NCBI GenBank assembly: GCA_943328975.2
Contig: CALQCC020000006.1
Span: 62,001 to 126,000, forward strand
From: Bordetella parapertussis
GTDB lineage: Bacteria > Acidobacteriota > Terriglobia > Bryobacterales > Bryobacteraceae
DNA length: 64,000 nt
Direction of reading: 5' to 3'
The notes under the pieces were generated by a model. That model made no database searches. It was not told where the DNA came from and saw only the letters and a program-made list of their open reading frames with translations. The position numbers and the translations under genes were made by a program. Of the stretch, positions 48,222 through 58,861 are shown piece after piece (within the stretch, counting starts at the first letter, position 1; the number at the start of each line of letters is the position of its first letter).

Positions 48222-49109
48222 CTACGCCGAATAAGGCGTGCGCTGCAACGCTTCCGACTCTTCGCGAGTACGGGAGCGGTGCAACCGCCGGCTGCCCGGC
48301 CATTCCAGGCGCATGTCGCGGCAGACTTCGTCCAGCATATCCACCGTGCAGGTCTTGCTCTCGGCCGCGAAGGCACTCAGCAGGAGGTTATCGCACACAC
48401 CGTTAATGACGCGAGGAATGCCCTGCGAACGTAGATGGATTTCGGCCATCAGTTTTTCGGTAAACACATTCTGCTCCGGCATGCCGGCATGTTCCAGTCG
48501 CGATTCGATGTATTCGATCGCATCCCGGAGGGTGAACGGCTGCAGGTTGCAGCGGAGAACCACGCGCTGCTTCAACTGCCGTAAGTTTGGAGCGTCCAGC
48601 TTGCGATCAAATTCGGGTTGCCCCGCCATAATGATCTGGATCAGCTTCCCGTTGCGATTTTCCAGATTGCCCAGCAAGCGAATCTCTTCCAGAACTTCCC
48701 ATTCCAGATTGTGCGCTTCGTCCACGATCAGCACCACGGTGCGACCGTCCTGGGCTTGCTCCACCAACAACTGATTGAGGGCAAAGAGGACTTCGGTCTT
48801 GGACGTTCTGGAACACGGCAGGTCCAGATCGTACGCGATCATTTCAAAAAACTGGCCTGAGTTGATGCGAGAGTTGAACAGGAAGGCAAACTCGATGAAT
48901 TGGTCTTCCAGGTAATCGCGAAGACACTCCAGCATCGTCGTCTTGCCCGTGCCAACTTCGCCGGTCAGGACGATAAAACCCTTGCGCGCCTGCACACCAT
49001 ACACTAGATTCGCAAGAGCTTCTTCGTGCTGTTCGCTGCGATAGAAGAACGCGGGGTCAGGACTTAAATTGAAGGGGCTCTCCGAGAAGCCAAAGAACGC
49101 ATTATACAT
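48222..49109 (-). CDS. ExeA/GspA-like AAA+ ATPase
   Basis: A 295-residue ATPase. It starts MYNAFFGFSESPFNLSPDP, the typical opening of the ExeA family, then YRSEQHEEALANLVYGV, Walker A GEVGTGKTTML, Walker B VVLIVDEAHNL and the sensor region LIQIIMAGQPEF. Relatives power assembly of type II secretion components or occur in exopolysaccharide/exosortase loci. It lacks the C-terminal membrane helix and peptidoglycan-binding part of full ExeA. It lies 86 bp after csm5 on the same strand; a link to the CRISPR module is possible only by position. Confidence 0.87.
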   Translation of the reverse strand: MYNAFFGFSESPFNLSPDPAFFYRSEQHEEALANLVYGVQARKGFIVLTGEVGTGKTTMLECLRDYLEDQFIEFAFLFNSRINSGQFFEMIAYDLDLPCSRTSKTEVLFALNQLLVEQAQDGRTVVLIVDEAHNLEWEVLEEIRLLGNLENRNGKLIQIIMAGQPEFDRKLDAPNLRQLKQRVVLRCNLQPFTLRDAIEYIESRLEHAGMPEQNVFTEKLMAEIHLRSQGIPRVINGVCDNLLLSAFAAESKTCTVDMLDEVCRDMRLEWPGSRRLHRSRTREESEALQRTPYSA

Positions 49110-49195: not shown

Positions 49196-50317
49196 CTAGA
49201 TCAGCTCTAACAACACGAATCCAGCGACTTGCGAAGCTTTCCCACCCTGGAAGACAATACGGCGCGTCTTGGGGAACGGCAGGCCCGTGCGCAAGGCGTT
49301 ATCGTAGAACGCCACACGCTTGGCCAGTGAGCGATAGGAGGCATCGGTGGTGTCTCCCGCAGCAATCTTCGAGAGAACGCCGCCACCCCACCCAATGGAG
49401 AGCACGCAAGCGTCTTGCCGTGAGGATACGGCGCGGATCTTGGCTTCGAGTTCATCCACCGTTGCAGCCAACGGAGCCAACCCTGTCCACTGCGCGTACT
49501 GTTTGTGATGCGCCAGTTGCGACGACGCAAAACGGTTCGCGGCCTGGAAAATCTTCGCACGGTCGCGATCAGAGGATTCGTTCCACACGCCTTCAAAGGC
49601 CGTGCCCGGCGACGCCATCTCGGCGAACGTCGGAGTGCTGTCATCAATGCGACGGGCGTCTACCGTGCCACGGGCAGCTTTCCAACCCAACTCGTACTGG
49701 CCCTCGCCCTTGGCCACCAACGTCGAGGTCCGCAGCAAGTAAACGTTCATGCTGCTGTGATTGATGCTCGCTGAATCACCCGCCGATACGCGGCGCATGA
49801 TGCTCTTCCCCGAACCACCCAGTACCGCTTCTTCCGCCTTGGTAGCGGGATTACGCGGGATTCGTTTGCCTTCGGCCTCTTCAGACTCGATGCGCTTCAC
49901 CAGATCGCGCATGGTCGCTTCGCTCCAGCGATCGAACACCGCGGCGGTACGAAGCGCGCCCTTGATCGCCGTGGCAGGCAGGTAAGCTCCACCCGCAGTG
50001 GAGGCTGCAAAAGTCGGAATAAAAAGACCTTGCGCCGGCGTCTTCTCAAACACCGGGACCTCGCTGGAGTGTTCGAACGGAATGCGTCGACCAGCGAAGT
50101 TCTGCGCAAATCCACCCCACGAGGCAAAGTCTAACTTATCGGCCTTCTTGAGCTGCGCGAGGTATCCCTCAAAGCGCGGCCCCTTGGCCAGCAAGCGGAA
50201 AATGCGCCGCTGATCCAGAACATTGACGTGGTCTTTCCACACCATGTAATCGATGGGCGAAAGCTTGCTGCCATCGCCGACCAGAGTCGGGGTCAAACAT
50301 GTGACGCGATACTTCAT
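49196..50317 (-). CDS. csm5: Type III-A CRISPR protein Csm5
   Basis: A 373-residue RAMP protein. It begins MKYRVTCLTPTLVGDGSKLS, followed by PIDYMVW, the Csm5 opening (LTPxxxGxGxxLxPxDY). Further on are FIPTFAASTAGGAYLPATAI with KGALRTA, the RAMP substrate-loop region, and a C-terminal Gly-rich stretch (IGWGGGVLSK). Csm5 caps the 3' end of the crRNA filament. ATG 50317 overlaps the csm4 stop by 4 bp. In-frame codons to 50680 lie inside csm4. Confidence 0.9.
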   Translation of the reverse strand: MKYRVTCLTPTLVGDGSKLSPIDYMVWKDHVNVLDQRRIFRLLAKGPRFEGYLAQLKKADKLDFASWGGFAQNFAGRRIPFEHSSEVPVFEKTPAQGLFIPTFAASTAGGAYLPATAIKGALRTAAVFDRWSEATMRDLVKRIESEEAEGKRIPRNPATKAEEAVLGGSGKSIMRRVSAGDSASINHSSMNVYLLRTSTLVAKGEGQYELGWKAARGTVDARRIDDSTPTFAEMASPGTAFEGVWNESSDRDRAKIFQAANRFASSQLAHHKQYAQWTGLAPLAATVDELEAKIRAVSSRQDACVLSIGWGGGVLSKIAAGDTTDASYRSLAKRVAFYDNALRTGLPFPKTRRIVFQGGKASQVAGFVLLELI

Positions 50318-51321
50318 GCAGTCACCTTCAAAGGAATCGAAATCGCCAGTGCGAAGCCCGCGCGATACACCGGATGCGCGAAGCCGTCCGGGGCAACATC
50401 GGCAACCGCGCCGCGCGGAGCAGCCGAGGCCACGATGACTGAGCCTTCCGTCACCATGCGCGTCAGTTTCTTGCCATCGCCCCACCCAGCTTGGCTTTCC
50501 ACGCGTCCACCGCGGGTCGTCAATTCGTAGTCGCCCTGTTGCCAATCGACCGCGTCGGTAGTCGCAGGATGGAACAACGAAAGCAGCCAGTAACCGGATT
50601 CCGTTTCTGACTTCGGCTGTTTGAGCAACAACCCAGGCAATTCGCCCGCAGTGATCTCCGGCATTTCCGAACGGCCCCAACCACGCGAACGTTCCCCGCC
50701 CATACCGGAATCAGCCAGCAAACGAAACGCAGCAGTCAGCGGACCAGTCCAGCGATCGCGCGCAGCATCGTCGGCAAACTCAGCGACGGTCCACAATCCG
50801 CAATCGGGAGTAAATTCCAAACACGCAGTGGAATGCGGCGTAACGCTGCTGCCGTCCCGATCCACAGCGGCACTGGAGCGGACGGCCACGCGAAACGGTC
50901 CAGGTACGGACGGGTTGCGCGCGGGCACCAGACATTCGCTTTCGCCGTCAATCGCCCACGATCCTTCAGATAGCGTACGACCCGCGAGCAGCGTCTCTAC
51001 AACGCTCATAGGGACGAAACGTGCGCCCTTCCAACGAATCTTCGCAGACGCTTGGGGCGGCCACAAATTGCGCGGCGGCTCGACTAACAACGTATCGCCC
51101 TGAAACGGGAAGCACGACCCGAAACGCACCGCAGGTTCCGCTGCGCGCGCCGTTGCCTCTAACCACTCGTCGAGCATACCCAGTTGCGCCATCGCGCTCG
51201 ACACCGCGGAATACAGCGAGTCGCTGTGAAACACGCGGTCGACGCGATCCCGCACCCCGGAATCCGGACCAATGCGCCAAGGGCCTGTCGGCCGCAGGCG
51301 GATGAGAAGACCTTGCGGCAT
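50314..51321 (-). CDS. csm4: Type III-A CRISPR protein Csm4
   Basis: A 335-residue RAMP protein that holds the crRNA 5' tag and contacts Cas10. It starts MPQGLLIRLRPTGPWRIGPD and has FHSDSLYSAVSSAMAQLG (the Csm4 HSDTLFSAL-type motif), RFVPMSVVETLLAG and the Gly-rich loop DSGMGGERSRGWGRSEM. Normal length for the family. It starts 1 bp after csm3. Confidence 0.9.
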   Translation of the reverse strand: MPQGLLIRLRPTGPWRIGPDSGVRDRVDRVFHSDSLYSAVSSAMAQLGMLDEWLEATARAAEPAVRFGSCFPFQGDTLLVEPPRNLWPPQASAKIRWKGARFVPMSVVETLLAGRTLSEGSWAIDGESECLVPARNPSVPGPFRVAVRSSAAVDRDGSSVTPHSTACLEFTPDCGLWTVAEFADDAARDRWTGPLTAAFRLLADSGMGGERSRGWGRSEMPEITAGELPGLLLKQPKSETESGYWLLSLFHPATTDAVDWQQGDYELTTRGGRVESQAGWGDGKKLTRMVTEGSVIVASAAPRGAVADVAPDGFAHPVYRAGFALAISIPLKVTA

Positions 51322-51322
51322 C

Positions 51323-52156
51323 CTAGCTCAGTTTTTCGCCAAACGAAGAATCATTTACCAGCGACTGCACCGCAGCCAGGTCCGCACCCGACGCGAGTTC
51401 GGCTTCCGCCGCGCCCGTCGAATAGAAGGACTCCCCGCGCCATGTCATCGTGACGTTCGCGAAGCGAACACGTCCGCTACCACGCGAACCGCCGCCGCCC
51501 AACGCATCGTCTTCCAGCAGCCGCAGGCCACCGATCAAACGCGCCGCCAGCGCCTTATCTTCTTCGCATAGAATGTCGAGCACCATGCGCACACGGAAGC
51601 GCGCACCGGCCGGAACACGTTCCAACGTCCGAGGATTCGCCTGCGATGTGATGCGGTCGATCGCGTTCTCGCTCTTGACCTCAGTGATTTCGTCGTCCAG
51701 GTTCTCGCGCATCTGCGCCGTGATGGACTCCTGATCGAGCGGCGCATCGTAGATGGCCAAACGCGCAGGGCTCGCCGAGCGAGCTTCGATGGCTTCGCCT
51801 TCCACCCGTTCCATGCGACCCGGATTGCGGCCGAACAGCAGGCAGATTTCGTCATCCGGACGATCGCTCTGGTGGATGCGCACTTCTTGTCCACGGCGCT
51901 TCGACAGATAGACCAACTCCGAAGGAGCCGTCAGCCCCATCGCGGTTTCCAGCAAGGACCGCAAGCGTCCGCGCAACGAACTGCCCGGGACATACGGCAA
52001 CCCGAACGCATCCTTTACAACCGGATTGTCCGCGCCGCCGATCTCGAGCGATCCCTTGCCCGCGCCAATGTGCAGGCCGGTCTCGCAGTGCAGATCACCG
52101 GCCAGAATCAGCTTGCCGATCAGCTTCAATTTAGTTTGAGCAGTATGTTGGCTCAT
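51323..52156 (-). CDS. csm3: Type III-A CRISPR protein Csm3 (target RNA nuclease subunit)
   Basis: A 277-residue Cas7-like backbone protein. The loop with the catalytic Asp is intact: GAGKGSLEIGGADNPVVKD, followed by LPYVPGSSLRGRLRSLLE. The C-terminal Gly-rich loop is DDALGGGGSRGSGRVRF. In known complexes repeated Csm3 subunits cut bound target RNA every 6 nt using this Asp. The preserved Asp argues that the module still cuts RNA. It starts 9 bp after csm2. Confidence 0.93.
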   Translation of the reverse strand: MSQHTAQTKLKLIGKLILAGDLHCETGLHIGAGKGSLEIGGADNPVVKDAFGLPYVPGSSLRGRLRSLLETAMGLTAPSELVYLSKRRGQEVRIHQSDRPDDEICLLFGRNPGRMERVEGEAIEARSASPARLAIYDAPLDQESITAQMRENLDDEITEVKSENAIDRITSQANPRTLERVPAGARFRVRMVLDILCEEDKALAARLIGGLRLLEDDALGGGGSRGSGRVRFANVTMTWRGESFYSTGAAEAELASGADLAAVQSLVNDSSFGEKLS

Positions 52157-52165
52157 ATAGTCTCG

Positions 52166-52954
52166 CTATTCGTTGTAGGCGACGATCGCCTCAAACAGGT
52201 CCTTAAATCTTTCGTATCCCTGCGCGTTGTTCTTGCGCGTCACCTGCAGCAACAGCCGCTCCAAGCCATCCAGGCTGCGCAGCGAATGCCGCGCGATAGT
52301 GTAAGCCAAGCGCGCGCGCAACATCACAAACTGATGCTGGCGATCACTTTCCGGAGCCCGCACCGCACGGCGCACGGCGTTAAACAAACGGCGCAGTTGG
52401 CTCTTAGTGCCGCTATCCATGTCGCGCATGCGAACCACAACGGCATGGGCTTGATTATCCAGATAGAGGCTATCGGTCATCAATTTCTCGATGTCGATAT
52501 CCATCATCGGCTCGAACGAACGGGCTCCGCGATCACCACCACCCGGACGTCCACCGCCTTCGCGACGGTCTCCACCCGGACGAGGACCACGATCTCCGCC
52601 ACCCGGACGACCGCCCTCAGGACGGCCACCACCACGCTCCGGACGAGGACCTCGATTTTCGCCACGCGGACCATCCGCACGCGCACCCTCGGCACGCGGT
52701 TCGCGCTTCGGCTGCGGCTCACGTTTCGGTTGCTGTTCACGAGCCGGCTGCTGTTCGCGCGGTTCACGCGGCGGACGGCTGCCTTCACGCTTCGCCAGCT
52801 GCGCGGCCAACGTTCCTTCGACAGGACCGGACGGCGCGGCGCTCTTCGCCACTAAAGGTTCCGCGACAACAGCTGGTTCCGGTGCGGCGACAGGCTCAGC
52901 CGCCGGAGCCGGGGTTTCGATAATGGGAGTAGGGTTCTCTTGATTCTCTTCCAT
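52166..52954 (-). CDS. csm2: Type III-A CRISPR protein Csm2 with long Arg/Gly/Pro-rich N-terminal extension
   Basis: A 262-residue protein, about twice normal Csm2 length. Residues about 150-262 are the helical Csm2 core: LMTDSLYLDNQAHAVVVRMR, KSQLRRLFNAVRRAVRAPES and a C-terminal YERFKDLFEAIVAYNE. Residues 1-55 are Ala/Pro/Glu/Val-rich. Residues 56-147 are a low-complexity basic stretch with PREPREQQPAREQQPKREP, then repeats of RPGGGDRG and RPERGGG, like RGG domains that bind RNA. The start at ATG 52954 is firm: AAGGAG lies 5 nt upstream. The extension is in frame and lies between two cas genes, so it is not a start-site error. Confidence 0.88.
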   Translation of the reverse strand: MEENQENPTPIIETPAPAAEPVAAPEPAVVAEPLVAKSAAPSGPVEGTLAAQLAKREGSRPPREPREQQPAREQQPKREPQPKREPRAEGARADGPRGENRGPRPERGGGRPEGGRPGGGDRGPRPGGDRREGGGRPGGGDRGARSFEPMMDIDIEKLMTDSLYLDNQAHAVVVRMRDMDSGTKSQLRRLFNAVRRAVRAPESDRQHQFVMLRARLAYTIARHSLRSLDGLERLLLQVTRKNNAQGYERFKDLFEAIVAYNE

Positions 52955-52972
52955 ACAACTCCTTAAGCGCAC

Positions 52973-54424
52973 TTACGCTTGAGCGGCAGACAGCCTCGCC
53001 CATTCTAGCGCCACGCGGCCCGCAGGCCGTAACTTTACTGTGATCGCGCTACGACCGATCAAATCCGCAATCAATGCCGTGCGCGCCTTCTCAAATTCCT
53101 GCCGCCCCCGGCTCCCCATGCGGGTAGCATGCCGCGAAGCGTTCAAGATCCGTCGGATACGGCGATGATACCGCCACGGCCGCTCGCCACCCATCTTCCG
53201 AGCCTGCTTCTTGGACATCCGCGACTGCGTCTCGCGATAGATCCCGCACAAGTCCCGCAGATATTGAGGGGAGCAGCCAAACTCGCTCACCATCTTCGAC
53301 AAAGCGTCTTTCAGCGTCGCGGCCTCGGCGAACTGCTTCCATTCCAGCGTGCGGCCCAGGATCCAGATGCAATCCTTGTCCGACGATTTCGCCGCTTCCA
53401 AACGTTGCCCGGCTTCTTCAAACACCGCCCCCAGCGAAGCATCCACTGCGGGAGCCAGCGCCAGAGCCATGGTGATGGTCTTGCCTTCAGGACCAACGAA
53501 GTCTTTCAAATTCTGCTCGGCAAAACGATGGAACAGCCGTTCAATTTCGCCAGCCAATCCGATCAGCGCGTCCCAAGCTCCGTAGACTGCGAAGTCGTCG
53601 CCGCCGGAATACATCACTGTGACCTTGCGCCAGAACTCCGGCATGGAACACAGCACTTCTAGTTCACCGGCGAAGAACTGTTTGTACATCACCGAAAGTT
53701 GAATATGTTCTTCGATCGACTGCGCGCGCTGCATGCGGATGGCGAAGTTATCCACGTCGCCGCGCAACACACCCCACGTTTCGACGCCGCCTGCACGAGA
53801 GGCCAACACCGCCGTCGACGCGGGCTCCGTGCCATCTTCGCTCGGCGCAGTGTGGCGAGCAAACGGAATCGCTTCGGCTGCCGCAGTTAACGGCCACGAA
53901 TGTTTTCCAGCAGTCGTCGTCACGCGACCCGGCGTTTCAGGGGACCACGAAACAGACTCCGCATCGCGCAGCGGAAATCCAAGTTCGGTAATGAAGTACT
54001 CTTCCGCGGAAGCATCCGCTGCTGTCACGGTCTCGTCGAACCCCGGAGCTCCGCGACGCTGATCCAGCGCCACCTGCAAGCGCCGACGCACATCCGTCCA
54101 GTCGCCTAAATTCTCCGTGAGACTCCAAATCAACTTCAGCGCGTTCCCGCTCAGCTGTCCGATTTCGGCAGCAGCGGCGGTCAGGAAAGCCTCCGCGGAC
54201 TCGCGCGTTTCAATCGGCAGCAGCAGCAGGAACCGGCCGCCACCACTCGATCCCAGCAGAATCTTCGCCAGCCCCAACTCCGCCAGCAACGCGCGCGGCA
54301 GCACTTCGCTCAGCAGGCTGATCCAATGCGAACGCCCCGTAAACACCTGGTCGGCGTCACGCGTGGCGGGGGCGAGCAGACAGTTGTCCACTCCTAGGAG
54401 TTTGCCTTCGAGAAAGATCTGCAT
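52973..54424 (-). CDS. cas10: Type III-A CRISPR protein Cas10/Csm1 lacking the HD domain
   Basis: A 483-residue Cas10, against roughly 750-850 in typical Csm1. It begins directly in the first palm region (KILLGSSGGGRFLLLLPIET near residue 52). The second palm has RGDVDNFAIRM at 221-231 and the cyclase motif VMYSGGDDFAVYG, GGDD at 274-277, intact. There is no N-terminal HD motif and no four-Cys zinc site; the C-terminal helical domain is basic (RRIRRILNASRHATRMGSRG). It should be able to make cyclic oligoadenylate but not cut ssDNA. It begins 15 bp after the cobA-hemD stop with no Shine-Dalgarno sequence and no room for a promoter in the gap. Confidence 0.92.
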   Translation of the reverse strand: MQIFLEGKLLGVDNCLLAPATRDADQVFTGRSHWISLLSEVLPRALLAELGLAKILLGSSGGGRFLLLLPIETRESAEAFLTAAAAEIGQLSGNALKLIWSLTENLGDWTDVRRRLQVALDQRRGAPGFDETVTAADASAEEYFITELGFPLRDAESVSWSPETPGRVTTTAGKHSWPLTAAAEAIPFARHTAPSEDGTEPASTAVLASRAGGVETWGVLRGDVDNFAIRMQRAQSIEEHIQLSVMYKQFFAGELEVLCSMPEFWRKVTVMYSGGDDFAVYGAWDALIGLAGEIERLFHRFAEQNLKDFVGPEGKTITMALALAPAVDASLGAVFEEAGQRLEAAKSSDKDCIWILGRTLEWKQFAEAATLKDALSKMVSEFGCSPQYLRDLCGIYRETQSRMSKKQARKMGGERPWRYHRRIRRILNASRHATRMGSRGRQEFEKARTALIADLIGRSAITVKLRPAGRVALEWARLSAAQA

Positions 54425-54439
54425 TTGCGGGCGAAACCA

Positions 54440-55894
54440 TCACTGTAGCATGGCTTCCACTAATCCCGTCATCGTGTGTGGCTCGGCCTCGACGTCCACA
54501 TGCAACCCGAGCTCGCGCGCCGTGGCCGATGTGATCGGGCCAATCGACGCGATCTTGATCCCTGCCAGCGCTTCCACACCAACCTCGCCCACCATGTTCT
54601 TCACCGTCGAGGAACTAGTGAACGTGATCCAGTGCGGCTTGCGCGCCAGCACGTCCTTCGCGCGATCGGACAAGTTGGCCGGAGCTTCCGTGCGATACGC
54701 CTCCACCACGTCGACAATCGCGCCGCGTTTGGCAAGTTCCGCAGGCACCACATCGCGCGCCACGGCGGCCCGAGGCAGCAGCACTCGCTTGCCCTTCAGA
54801 TCTTCCGACGCGAGCGCCTCCAGCAAACTCTCCGCGACGTATTCCGCAGGCATGCAGTCCGCCTTCAAATGCAGCGCTTCCACCGCAGCGCATGTCGCTG
54901 GACCAATCGCTGCGATCTTGCCACGTAACTTCCGAATATCGTCCAGCCCCGCAACAAAGCGGCGAACCCCATTCACGCTGGTGAAGATGATCCAGTCGTA
55001 AGTATCCAGCCGCTGCATCGCCAGCGCCAACGGACCAGGATCGGCAGGCGGCTGAATTTCGATCACAGGCAGCGCGATCACTTCCGCGCCCAGGGCCTCC
55101 AGCGGTTCCGCCAAGTCACGCGACTGCCGATGGTCCCGCGTGATCACGATGCGCTGCCCAAACAGCGGCAGCCGCTCAAACCAATTGAACTTATCCCGCA
55201 GCGACACAACCTCGCCGATCACGATCGTCGCCGGTGGACGCAAACCCTGCGCCACGATCAATCCCGGCAGTGTCTCCAGCGTTCCAACGATGGTCTCTTG
55301 ATTCGGCCGCGTGGCCCAACGCACCACCATCGCGGGCGTTTTCGCCGACCGCCCCCGAGCAATCATCTCCGCCGCGATCGCCGCGAAGTTGACCAGCCCC
55401 ATGAACAACACGACAGTCTCCGCCGAACCAACCTTGCCCCAGTCAATCGCATCCACGCGATGCCCCGTCACAAACGTAACAGCCGAGGTGTGCTCGCGAT
55501 GCGTCAGAGGAACTCCCGTGTAAGCCGCAACGCCCAGCGGAACCGTCACGCCCGGTACGATCTCGAACGCCACGCCCGCAGAGGCCAGCGCCTCAACCTC
55601 TTCCCCGCCCCGAGCAAAAATGAACGGATCGCCGCCCTTCAACCGGACCACGTTGCGTCCACGCTGCGCATGTTCGACCAACAGCGCGTTGATCTCCTCC
55701 TGCGACATCTCGTGATTGGCGCGCTTCTTGCCGACATAGATCCGCTCGGCGGTAACGGGAGCATAGTCGAGCAAACGATCGCTAGCCAGCGCGTCATAGA
55801 GAACTACGTCCGCGCGTTCGAGCACCTTGCGCCCTTTGACAGTGATCAGATCGGGATCACCGGGGCCCGCACCGACCAGATACACCTTGTTCAC
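54440..55894 (-). CDS. Fused uroporphyrinogen-III methyltransferase / uroporphyrinogen-III synthase
   Basis: A 484-residue two-domain enzyme. Residues 1 to about 245 are CobA/SUMT: KVYLVGAGPGDPDLITVKG, VVRLKGGDPFIFARGGEE and PGVTVPLGVAAYTGVPLTHR. Residues about 255-484 are HemD: RIVITRDHRQSRDLAEPLEA, DWIIFTSVNGVRRF and WITFTSSSTVKNM. It closes hydroxymethylbilane to uroporphyrinogen III and methylates it to precorrin-2, the branch to siroheme and cobalamin. It overlaps hemC by 4 bp. A siroheme reductase gene lies at 61176. Confidence 0.95.
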   Translation of the reverse strand: MNKVYLVGAGPGDPDLITVKGRKVLERADVVLYDALASDRLLDYAPVTAERIYVGKKRANHEMSQEEINALLVEHAQRGRNVVRLKGGDPFIFARGGEEVEALASAGVAFEIVPGVTVPLGVAAYTGVPLTHREHTSAVTFVTGHRVDAIDWGKVGSAETVVLFMGLVNFAAIAAEMIARGRSAKTPAMVVRWATRPNQETIVGTLETLPGLIVAQGLRPPATIVIGEVVSLRDKFNWFERLPLFGQRIVITRDHRQSRDLAEPLEALGAEVIALPVIEIQPPADPGPLALAMQRLDTYDWIIFTSVNGVRRFVAGLDDIRKLRGKIAAIGPATCAAVEALHLKADCMPAEYVAESLLEALASEDLKGKRVLLPRAAVARDVVPAELAKRGAIVDVVEAYRTEAPANLSDRAKDVLARKPHWITFTSSSTVKNMVGEVGVEALAGIKIASIGPITSATARELGLHVDVEAEPHTMTGLVEAMLQ

Positions 55895-56787
55895 GCCGAA
55901 TAAACCTCGCGCAGAATATCCGCAGCTCCCTCATCCAGCAGCGTCCGCCCCAACGTCGCGCCCACATGCGCCGAATCCGGCCCCGACAAGTACCCGCGCA
56001 CCACCTCAGACCCATCCGGCCGCGCCACAATCGCACTCAAGAACACACCATCCGCAGTAACCGTGGCATGCGCGCCCACAGGAACCTGACAGCCCCCGCC
56101 CAGCACCAGCAACAACGCCCGCTCCGCCGTCACAGCACTCCGCGTAGCAGCATGATCCAACTTGCGAGCCAACTCCTGCGCCGCCCCGCCGTCATCGCGA
56201 GTCTCAATCGCCAGCGCACCCTGCCCCACCGCCGGACACATGATCTCCGCCGGAATCAACTCCGTAATCCGATCCGCCCAGCCCAACCGGCGTAGCCCCG
56301 CCGCAGCCAGCACGATCGCGTCGTAATGTCCTTCATCCAGCTTGCGTAACCGCGTGTCCACGTTCCCGCGCAGCATCTCGATCGACAGTCCTTGCCCCAG
56401 CGCCAACAATTGCGACGACCGCCGCAGCGAACTCGTACCTACCTTCATGCCCTCGCGCAATTCGCTCACCCGAGCCCCGATCAACGCATCGCGCGGCTCT
56501 TCACGTTCCGGAATCGCAGATAAGATCAACCCCGCCGGCAACTCCGTCGGCACGTCCTTCATACTGTGTACCGCCAAATCAATCGACCGATCCAGCAGCG
56601 CCTCTTCAATCTCTTTCGTGAACAGACCCTTGCCGCCCACCTTCGATAGCGGCACGTCCTGAATCCTGTCGCCGCTCGTCTTAATGATTTCGATGCGAGC
56701 TTCCGCGCCCAACGCCGCCAAACACGATTGAATATGCCGGGCCTGCCACAGCGCGAGTTGCGACCCGCGCGAACCAATGACGATCAT
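55891..56787 (-). CDS. hemC: Hydroxymethylbilane synthase (porphobilinogen deaminase)
   Basis: A 298-residue HemC that links four porphobilinogens. It has IGSRGSQLALWQARHIQ, VGTSSLRRSSQLLAL, MLRGNVDTRLRKLDEG, and the Cys carrying the dipyrromethane cofactor in LLVLGGGCQVPVGAHA. It overlaps hemA and cobA-hemD by 4 bp each, so the pathway genes are coupled in order. Confidence 0.97.
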   Translation of the reverse strand: MIVIGSRGSQLALWQARHIQSCLAALGAEARIEIIKTSGDRIQDVPLSKVGGKGLFTKEIEEALLDRSIDLAVHSMKDVPTELPAGLILSAIPEREEPRDALIGARVSELREGMKVGTSSLRRSSQLLALGQGLSIEMLRGNVDTRLRKLDEGHYDAIVLAAAGLRRLGWADRITELIPAEIMCPAVGQGALAIETRDDGGAAQELARKLDHAATRSAVTAERALLLVLGGGCQVPVGAHATVTADGVFLSAIVARPDGSEVVRGYLSGPDSAHVGATLGRTLLDEGAADILREVYSA

Positions 56788-58046
56788 TCGTCTCCGCCTA
56801 GTCTAAAAAGTTTCCGGATGATATCGAGCTCGTGCGAGTCCGACCCTTGCTTGCGCAGCTCCGAGATCGGTCCATGCGCGATCTTGTTCACCAGCCCCCG
56901 CGTCAGGGCATCGATCGCTTCCTCTTGCTGCGGCGTGAGCGCACCCAGCTTCGCCCGCACACGATCGATCGAATCCTTGCGCCATCCATCGAGCTGCTCC
57001 TGCAACCGCACAATCGTCGGAGCCACCTCACGCGTCTTCAGCCGCAGCATCATACGCTCGACTTCTTCGCCGATGATGTCTTCGGCATCCTTGGCGACTT
57101 CAATACGACCCTTCAGGTTCGTATCCACCACCTTGCCCAAGTCGTCAATATCGTAGAGAAACGCGCCGTCCAGTTGGTTCACTTCCGGATCGATGTTGCG
57201 CGGCACCGCGATGTCGATCAGGAACATCGGCTGATTGCGTCGCTTGGAAATCGCAGCCCGCACCTGATCCTTGGTCAGGATGTAATGCGGAGCCCCGCTC
57301 GACGCCAGCACGATATCGACCGACGGAATCATATCCTCGAACTTCTCGTAATCGATGACGCGTCCGCCGCAGTCTTCCGCCAGCGCCTCCGCCCGAGCCC
57401 GCGTGCGATTCGTAACCAGAATCTCCGACACGCCTGCCCGCCGCAGATGCCGAGCCGCGCTCTCCGCCATCTTACCTGCGCCAATCACCAGCGCGCGCTT
57501 GCCCTGCAACGTCCCGAAAATTTCGCGCGCCAGTTCCACCGCCGCGTAACTCACCGAAACCGCGCTCTGCCCAATCTCTGTCTCGGACCGCACCCGCTTC
57601 GCCACGTTGAACGCGCGCGTCATCAACAGGTCCAGGAACCCGCTAACCGAGCCATTCGACTTCGCCACCGCATAAGCGGCCTTGAGCTGCCCCAGGATCT
57701 GCGGCTCGCCGATCACCATCGAATCCAAGCTCGACGCCACGCGGAACAAATGCCGGATCGCCTCGGGCCCGTCGTAACGATACAAGTACGGCGTCACCCA
57801 AGCGCGCTCTACACTGCGAGCGTCCGCTAGGAAGCCCTCGACCGCAGCCTCCACCTCGGCACCCTCATCCGCGGTGACCGACACTTCGACCCGGTTGCAG
57901 GTGGAAAGGATCATCCCCTCCAAAATCCCCGGACGCCGCTTCAACTTATCCAGCGCCTCCGGCAGCGCCTTCTCGTCGAATGCGATCCGTTCGCGCACTT
58001 CCACCGGAGCCGTACGATGATTCAAACCCGTAAGTAGGAATTTCAT
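56784..58046 (-). CDS. hemA: Glutamyl-tRNA reductase
   Basis: A 420-residue NADPH enzyme opening the C5 route to 5-aminolevulinate. It starts MKFLLTGLNHRTAPVEVRER and has the catalytic Cys in LSTCNRVEVSV, GEPQILGQLKAAYAVAKS, and the NADPH fold at ALVIGAGKMAESAARHL. ATG 58046 overlaps the stop of the HemX/CcsA-like gene by 4 bp; extension to 58190 was rejected because it lies within that gene. Confidence 0.97.
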   Translation of the reverse strand: MKFLLTGLNHRTAPVEVRERIAFDEKALPEALDKLKRRPGILEGMILSTCNRVEVSVTADEGAEVEAAVEGFLADARSVERAWVTPYLYRYDGPEAIRHLFRVASSLDSMVIGEPQILGQLKAAYAVAKSNGSVSGFLDLLMTRAFNVAKRVRSETEIGQSAVSVSYAAVELAREIFGTLQGKRALVIGAGKMAESAARHLRRAGVSEILVTNRTRARAEALAEDCGGRVIDYEKFEDMIPSVDIVLASSGAPHYILTKDQVRAAISKRRNQPMFLIDIAVPRNIDPEVNQLDGAFLYDIDDLGKVVDTNLKGRIEVAKDAEDIIGEEVERMMLRLKTREVAPTIVRLQEQLDGWRKDSIDRVRAKLGALTPQQEEAIDALTRGLVNKIAHGPISELRKQGSDSHELDIIRKLFRLGGDE

Positions 58047-58861
58047 GGAGCCAGAGTCGACTCCAATCCCAAATGCGTTACCCATGTCAACGCGCTGCAT
58101 CCCAGCACCGCCAACGCCATCACCGCAGCCTTGCGCCCACGCCACCCCGCCGACTGGCGCAGGAACAGCATAATCAATAAGAGGACCCAAGTGAACAGAG
58201 AGATCGTAATACTAGGATTCCCGATCCAACTCGAATTCGAATAGAAGAAAGCCCACATCACCGCGAAAATCAGTCCCAGAGTCAGAAGCGCGAACCCCAG
58301 CCCCAGCGACTTCGTCAGCATCCCATCCAGTGTCGCCAGCGGAGGCAACTTTTCCAGCAAGGCGCTCCCCGACTTGTTCTTCAGCCGCCGCTCCTGCATC
58401 AAGTACGCCACCGCCGACAGCGCCGTAAAGAACAACGCCGCGTACCCAGCCAGCACTAATAGAATGTGGACCACCAGCAACACACCGCGGAATCCCTCGT
58501 CCTGCGCAGGCGTCATCGGGGTATCCAATGCGGCCACCAGCACCATCGCGAACACCAGCGGGAACAGAGCCACTGACGCGCTGCCAAAGCGGTAGCGCCT
58601 TTCCGTAACGACGAACGCAAACGCAATCAGGAACGCACACAAACTCAGCGTCTGATAAAAGTTGTCCACCGGAATGTGTCCGCTCGCGAGGCCCAGGTCG
58701 ACAATCGCGACCCCATGCAAAATCACCGCCAGCCGGAACGCATTCAGAGCCACACCAAACGCACTCTGCCCCTGCCGCACCGCGGTGAGCAAGGAATGCA
58801 GCAGCCCCACGGCATACAACCCCGCCGCGACGCGCAACCAGAATGTGCTGGCTTCAATCAT
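58043..58861 (-). CDS. HemX/CcsA-like cytochrome c assembly membrane protein
   Basis: A 272-residue protein with about eight hydrophobic segments, matching the CcsA/HemX family commonly encoded before hemA. It has VHILLVLAGYAALFFTALSA and WAFFYSNSSWIGNPSITISL. The Trp-rich WGxxWxWD haem-handling motif of true CcsA is not seen, so HemX, which limits HemA level in bacilli, is the closer match. First gene of the tetrapyrrole/CRISPR train. TAGAAT on the minus strand (58877-58882) is a likely -10. Confidence 0.83.
   Translation of the reverse strand: MIEASTFWLRVAAGLYAVGLLHSLLTAVRQGQSAFGVALNAFRLAVILHGVAIVDLGLASGHIPVDNFYQTLSLCAFLIAFAFVVTERRYRFGSASVALFPLVFAMVLVAALDTPMTPAQDEGFRGVLLVVHILLVLAGYAALFFTALSAVAYLMQERRLKNKSGSALLEKLPPLATLDGMLTKSLGLGFALLTLGLIFAVMWAFFYSNSSWIGNPSITISLFTWVLLLIMLFLRQSAGWRGRKAAVMALAVLGCSALTWVTHLGLESTLAP

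Follow-up and report, generated by a model that had tools for sequence, protein, structure and literature searches.

A Csm2 (Cas11) core behind a long, predicted disordered N-terminal arm in a type III-A operon of Bryobacterales

The product encoded at positions 52166 to 52954 of the window (the whole 64,000-nucleotide stretch of DNA that was analyzed) is a genuine Csm2 (Cas11) core behind about 150 low-complexity residues. Comparisons across the family indicate that this N-terminal arm is translated, is protein coding, and is selected for its composition more than for its sequence. The reading that we favor, at a rough probability of 0.45, is that this is a functional Csm2 in which the core-proximal Arg/Gly segment of a disordered arm weakly contacts RNA and thereby aids a complex that cleaves RNA through Csm3.

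RESULTS

The csm2 gene and its product

The features of the operon are as follows.

52166..52954, minus strand: csm2 with N-terminal extension, 262 aa; PF03750 and TIGR01870 on the C-terminal part
52959..52964, minus strand: ribosome-binding site AAGGAG, 4 nt 5' of the csm2 ATG, read directly and SD-like by scoring
52790..52954, minus strand: outer extension, residues 1 to 55, Ala/Pro/Glu-rich, net charge -6
52514..52789, minus strand: inner extension, residues 56 to 147, Arg/Gly/Pro-rich polyampholyte, predicted disordered (pLDDT about 44 to 56)
52166..52504, minus strand: Csm2 core, predicted helical bundle, residues 151 to 262 and stop (alignment, AlphaFold, structural match)
52973..54424, minus strand: cas10/csm1, 483 aa, no HD domain, GGDD present
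51323..52156, minus strand: csm3, with the catalytic loop GGADNPVVKD
50314..51321, minus strand: csm4, by profile match
49196..50323, minus strand: csm5, by profile match

The csm2 ATG is at 52954, 18 nt past the cas10 stop, and the stop codon is at 52166. Pfam Csm2 (PF03750) matches residues 167 to 260 (E = 9.5e-10; 39.7 bits against a cut-off of 24.8), and NCBIfam TIGR01870 matches residues 183 to 261 (39.1 bits against a cut-off of 30.6). The extension alone (52505 to 52954) matched no Pfam family at an E value of ≤1. At 262 aa the protein is far larger than the 120 to 140 aa or so that is usual for Csm2 without a long extension; its membership in the family holds nonetheless, because size is typical of Csm2 and does not define it. 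The open reading frame, the profile matches, and the core coordinates thus agree with the reading made earlier from the sequence alone (the sequence-only reading), which had proposed a Csm2 with an N-terminal extension of about 150 residues behind a strong ribosome site; the AAGGAG four bases ahead of the ATG is that site. Two open reading frames of 327 and 150 aa lie opposite csm2 on the plus strand and are not taken as genes, because it is the minus-strand frame that has homology and a codon-position signal.

In the AlphaFold model (59 sequences in the alignment), the core has a pLDDT of mostly 85 to 95 and the arm one of about 44 to 61, so that the core is predicted to be a confident helical bundle and the arm intrinsically disordered. 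Residues 154 to 262 of the model align with solved Csm2 chains at Z scores of 10 to 12 and rmsd values of mostly 2 to 3 Å. These scores stand well clear of the next block of alignment rows, at about Z = 8, which consists of Cas10 C-terminal domains and helical bundles of other kinds. The top 16 Foldseek matches of the model are all Csm2 (E > 0.001; probability, 0.82 to 1.00). The modeled core therefore has the Csm2 helical-bundle fold. It also resembles type III-A Csm2 in its RNA-contact residues and in its operon with cas10, csm3, csm4, and csm5. Each of the best 80 of 207 homologues (see below) has R, Y, and R at the positions that we take, by our own motif reading against the S. epidermidis sequence, to correspond to three RNA-contacting residues of S. 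epidermidis Csm2. Contact of that Arg, Tyr, and Arg with target RNA is described in the text available from PMC10289348.

Composition and predicted disorder of the arm

The arm begins with an Ala/Pro/Glu-rich part and continues as Arg/Gly/Pro low complexity, in the order and over the residues that the sequence-only reading had given (1 to 55 and 56 to 147). From residue 56 to the junction with the core, it has 24 basic and 16 acidic residues (net charge, +8), with many Asp and Glu and 1 aromatic. The arm of the window as a whole has a net charge of +2, 1 aromatic in 149 residues, 1 RGG, and 5 RG; its richest 60-residue stretch is 77% R+G+P, and RPGGGDRG occurs in 2 exact copies. The description of the arm as RGG-like is therefore apt as far as it is Arg/Gly-rich and predicted to be disordered, but the combination of RGG repeats, aromatics, and net positive charge expected of an RGG-type region, and with it a classical RGG tract, was not found in the arm of the window.

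Composition was computed for 77 arms of the best 80 of the 207 homologues. Those left out were L254 (truncated by its contig), L223 (incomplete at the 5' end), and L220, for which the scripted start fell inside cas10 and the arm was taken by eye as 114 aa. These 77 arms contain 64 aromatics in 6,746 residues and a median of 1 RGG. Their median net charge is +2, with 22 of the 77 being neutral or net negative, and the 34 core-proximal residues are net positive in all 77. At the DNA level the repeat in the window is weak (four 39-nt copies of 62 to 77% identity; TRF arrays short and low scoring), which gives no indication of a collapsed or expanded repeat. A misassembled tandem repeat was rejected on this ground and because an equivalent arm is found in 79 independent assemblies.

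To place the arm within its own genome, we use a tract survey of 2.04 Mb of that genome; csm2 is absent from this survey because a longer antisense open reading frame displaced its frame, and its value of 0.77 was computed separately and carries no rank. The Arg-type tracts of equal strength on recognizable proteins are on an IF-2 with an Arg/Gly/Pro tract (L171:10116-13190) and on an S4/pseudouridine synthase with a long C-terminal tail of the DRGDRPSGPPRGDRP type (L204:628-2241). These tails are comparable Arg-type low complexity on RNA-associated proteins, but they are not on CRISPR proteins and homology between the tracts is undetectable; the arm, searched against its own genome, matched only itself, with the next match at an E value of 0.08 or worse. 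Gly/Pro/Ala tracts without much Arg were found on enzymes of the secreted type.

The arm is conserved, and sequence comparisons indicate that it is translated

We examined conservation in two sets of genomes. The first is a survey of 61 genomes, 37 of them from the family of the window, in which 32 of the 37 family genomes have an orthologous Csm2. The second is a scan of named genomes that gave 207 confirmed relatives, of which the best 80 were examined; nearly all are labeled Bryobacterales, Bryobacteraceae, Solibacteraceae, Terriglobia, Acidobacteriaceae, or Acidobacteria, and the single Acidimicrobiia and Arcobacter entries are probably mislabeled bins. All 32 orthologues have an arm of at least roughly 39 residues, and so do all 79 readable homologues of the best 80 (one is cut by a contig end), with lengths of 34 to 174 residues. 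The sequence-only reading had named armless homologues in the same operon as the result that would tell against it, and there are none in either set; the two sets have species in common and are not independent. A conserved arm composition, which it had proposed to look for, was seen throughout the family.

In 13 of the 32 family orthologues, the 100 codons ahead of the core motif contain no ATG, GTG, or TTG, and translation in these must therefore begin far upstream. For 62 of 76 loci of the best 80, the csm2 start that we chose lies between -30 and +60 nt from the end of cas10. We compared 18 close pairs, which are hand-picked close relatives and not a random sample. In all 18, third-position differences exceed those at each other position; the dN/dS ratio is 0 to 0.30 for the arm and 0 to 0.07 for the core. 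An internal start near codon 148, the second outcome that had been named in advance as adverse, was looked for and was not found: the start-codon-free stretch and the third-position excess argue that it is already refuted for the family.

In a tree of Csm3 and the Csm2 core, arms of at least 85 residues require 9 gains or losses, and the Csm2 of the window falls inside a well-supported set of 21 that are all long armed. Across the arms of the best 80 homologues, no short linear motif is conserved except at the junction, which is RP[ED]GP or RPFEGP-like.

Other Csm2 proteins

A Csm2 is encoded in 18 of 396 genomes sampled across the phylum, and 16 of the 17 Csm2 proteins from outside the family were read (all but L301). 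The open frames of these non-family Acidobacteriota proteins are 137 to 180 aa, with one of 219 aa, in contrast to the 262 aa and disordered arm of about 150 residues in the window; their N-terminal tails are short, several being Gln/Ser/Arg/Gly-rich, and none has a comparable tract. A divergent Csm2 in another family of the class (G057, L011:910-1818) has an independent Arg/Pro-rich extension of about 190 residues, which includes a four-cysteine, zinc-ribbon-like stretch with weak Pfam zinc-ribbon matches (E = 0.04 to 0.24).

Thermococcus onnurineus Csm2 (PDB 6mur and 6iqw) also has residues before the common fold, since the structural alignment starts at chain residue 46 to 50. This is a precedent for N-terminal additions to Csm2, but it amounts to only about 45 residues, and the alignment does not give their Arg/Gly content. 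Full-text literature searches, judged largely from the search results, returned no Csm2 described as N-terminally extended, disordered, RGG bearing, or condensate forming and no report of type III systems in Bryobacter or Solibacter. The statement that no Csm2 of this form had been described is thus correct in that we found no description, and it needs qualification in that short polar tails are common and T. onnurineus has its extra residues.

The csm operon and its inheritance

The genes form a tight operon in the order cas10, csm2, csm3, csm4, csm5. Wherever the flanking DNA of the best 80 loci reaches far enough, the set is complete: csm3, csm4, and csm5 are present in 56 of 56 loci on the downstream side and cas10 in 50 of 50 on the upstream side. 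In the five surveyed loci that have heme genes, the Csm2 core is 90 to 96% identical to that of the window, compared with 70 to 91% for hemA, hemC, and hemD, and it exceeds each of the three in all five; the Csm3 core is likewise more conserved than the neighboring heme genes. These comparisons suggest that cas10-csm2-csm3-csm4-csm5 is vertically inherited across Bryobacterales and is housekeeping-like rather than swapped. Horizontal mobility of the operon was rejected, as the cores follow the species and the make-up of the operon does not change, and a viral origin was rejected because no relative of the Csm2 core was found among viral contigs.

The Csm3 loop GG[A/S]DNPV[V/I]KD, whose Asp we take to be the catalytic residue, is kept in 81 of 81 sequences. 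Evolution is faster in Cas10, whose mean identity is 0.76 within the genus and 0.49 across genera. No HD family was matched in the Cas10 of the window by Pfam at an E value of ≤1, and the motif HD-x-[GA]-K is absent from all 77 Cas10 sequences; HD-less Cas10 proteins exist elsewhere. GGDD is kept in 59 of the 77, that of the window included, and is altered in the other 18, which belong to scattered lineages. As a general figure, about 97% of Cas10 proteins are predicted to be active in the portion of PMC12669027 available to us. A comparison by eye revealed no pattern between arm length and GGDD decay. Types III-C, III-G, III-H, and III-I, which have an inactivated or lost Cas10 cyclase according to the same portion of that source, resemble this family in that some members have lost GGDD, the motif that makes cOA, but differ from it in that the Bryobacterales operon is an ordinary III-A set with only 18 of 77 Cas10 sequences altered.

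Separate, clearly different III-A loci are present in G032, G004, and G023. The one in G023 (L065, 11068 to 13669), a second locus in a genome that has the core Csm operon as well, lies close to Cas1 and has CRISPR arrays, with runs of 21 and 15 repeats.

The surroundings of the operon were also inspected. In the window (52973 to 58861, minus strand), it follows ccsA-hemA-hemC-hemD on the same strand, as it does in L214, L219, L226, L227, and L228, and since the gaps in the window are a few bases or overlaps, it may be cotranscribed with heme synthesis; hemD was not found in the other 45 of the 50 loci with enough upstream DNA. An AAA ATPase of the XrtA/PEP-CTERM type (48222 to 49109, minus strand; TIGR03015, below cut-off) adjoins csm5, and such a gene is next to csm5 in 32 of the 56 loci with enough downstream DNA. 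It is probably a neighbor rather than a Cas protein.

Cas1, Cas6, arrays, and effectors

No Cas1 was found in the genome of the window, which is 99.66% complete; Cas1 is absent from 24 of the 37 family genomes and matched in 13. Many type III systems lack a cas1 of their own. Cas6, the protein for crRNA processing, is present in 36 of the 37 and, in the genome of the window, is unlinked to the csm operon. This orphan Cas6 (G000:C37:24434-24796; L066:9457-10320) lies between RCC1-like and mpg genes, with no array or other cas gene nearby and only coding or weak repeats. The unlinked site is conserved, in that its gene order is common to 5 of 14 neighborhoods (the genome of the window, G001, G011, G014, and G020).

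With a detection script that recovered its positive controls, no CRISPR array was found in 2.04 of 4.34 Mb (47%) of the genome, with both ends of most contigs covered, and none was found in the 80 homologous loci (0.90 Mb). The latter contain only short repeats, which we read as coding because their spacings are multiples of three. Genome-wide pattern searches, which covered only repeats that end in TGAAAS or GAAAS, agree: the TGAAAS triple pattern had 0 matches, and the GAAAS triple pattern had 67, compared with 58 in a reversed control, an excess too small to be called an array. III-B, III-C, III-E, and III-F loci without an adjacent array may use arrays in trans. Such missing adjacent arrays are common for these four subtypes in the available text of PMC12669027. 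A CARF protein of the Cas02710 type is absent from the genome of the window. The Csm6-HEPN search gave no match in any genome, controls included, and is uninformative.

DISCUSSION

What the arm may do

In a Csm complex, copies of Csm2 sit next to one another on the target RNA (several copies per complex are reported in the text available from PMC10289348), so several arms would be displayed on each complex. We infer that the core-proximal Arg/Gly segments would make weak, sequence-independent contacts with bound or incoming RNA and that these contacts would strengthen target capture and an otherwise loose association of Csm2, the conserved output of the complex presumably being cleavage of the target RNA by Csm3. 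The arms of the subclade of the window have an added acidic Ala/Pro/Glu segment, probably a solubilizing or self-shielding brush. In what is available of PMC13060164, Csm2 is mobile or loosely held without target and becomes ordered with it, and N-terminally His-tagged Csm2 still assembles (likewise in PMC9762709), which suggests that its N-terminus can bear an exposed tail. We favor weak, multivalent RNA contact because R, Y, and R are kept, Csm2 orders with target, a tagged N-terminus is tolerated, and the 34 proximal residues are positive. Added RNA affinity is plausible.

Some observations limit this reading. A simple electrostatic model of RNA binding is weakened by an arm that is almost charge balanced (median, +2; not positive in 22 of 77), and the range of lengths together with the 9 changes of the long form on the tree argues that no precise arm architecture is required. 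The other tracts of the genome point both ways: we count the Arg-type tracts on IF-2 and the S4/pseudouridine synthase, both RNA associated, in favor of an RNA role, and the common Gly/Pro/Ala-rich tracts on unrelated secreted proteins against it.

Charged disordered arms often act as docking sites, and the main rival to RNA contact is that the arm recruits a partner protein, such as a degradosome nuclease or Csm5/Cas10. In the available part of PMC9762709, S. epidermidis Csm5 binds and stimulates PNPase through a basic disordered stretch (disordered region 2), which is a likeness on another Csm subunit, although that region is a short internal loop, neither N-terminal nor on Csm2. The conservation of composition and not of sequence, with no short linear motif kept beyond the junction, and the lack of a known partner leave us doubtful of docking.

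A GC-rich genome might also expand disordered termini, with selection removing only harmful ones, and the arm would then be tolerated low-complexity filler. This would account for the free variation in arm length (34 to 174 aa) and sequence, for the similar Gly/Pro/Arg tracts on other proteins of the genome, and for an arm dN/dS (≤0.30) far above that of the core (≤0.07). We nevertheless consider filler unlikely, given that the arm is lost in none of the 79 readable homologues, that the core-adjacent segment is net positive in 77 of 77, and that the dN/dS ratio is clearly below 1.

It is quite improbable that the arms serve as a condensate scaffold that concentrates the complex by phase separation. 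They are Arg/Gly-rich and predicted to be disordered, and there are several Csm2 copies per complex (text available from PMC10289348), but the near absence of aromatics (1 of 149 residues in the window and 64 of 6,746 over the 77 homologues), the few RGG (median, 1), and the near neutrality of the arm lead us to set aside the earlier suggestion that it promotes condensates. Finally, a miscalled start, with translation from near codon 148 and the arm untranslated, has two ATG codons directly ahead of the core in the window to recommend it and has next to no chance of being correct, as these two lack an SD sequence, 13 of 32 orthologues have no start codon in that region, and the third-position excess is seen in 18 of 18 pairs.

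Should the arm raise the affinity for RNA, as in the reading that we favor, it would be a natural answer to a problem in engineering Csm RNA-knockdown tools, which are weak both in holding Csm2 and in capturing the target.

A possibly domesticated Csm complex

The larger surprise is the inheritance pattern of the operon, which is more worthy of attention than the arm by itself. A tentative explanation, which we rate as possible but below even odds, is that in Bryobacterales the Csm complex has been domesticated as an RNA-guided or RNA-directed ribonuclease with vertical inheritance, free of CRISPR adaptation and maybe loaded by Cas6 with chromosomal guides, in which Csm3 would act on cellular or persistent transcripts and the Csm2 arms would be an RNA-handling device for that role. 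The constant and conserved operon, the retained Csm3 loop, the decay of GGDD, the loss of Cas1, the unlinked Cas6, and the fact that no array was seen fit a domesticated complex that cleaves target RNA, and they do not prove it. If the complex is domesticated, many soil bacteria would have retained a type III system among their core genes, with target RNA cleavage preserved while the nuclease and signaling outputs decay, and the question would arise of which guides and transcripts the Csm complex handles.
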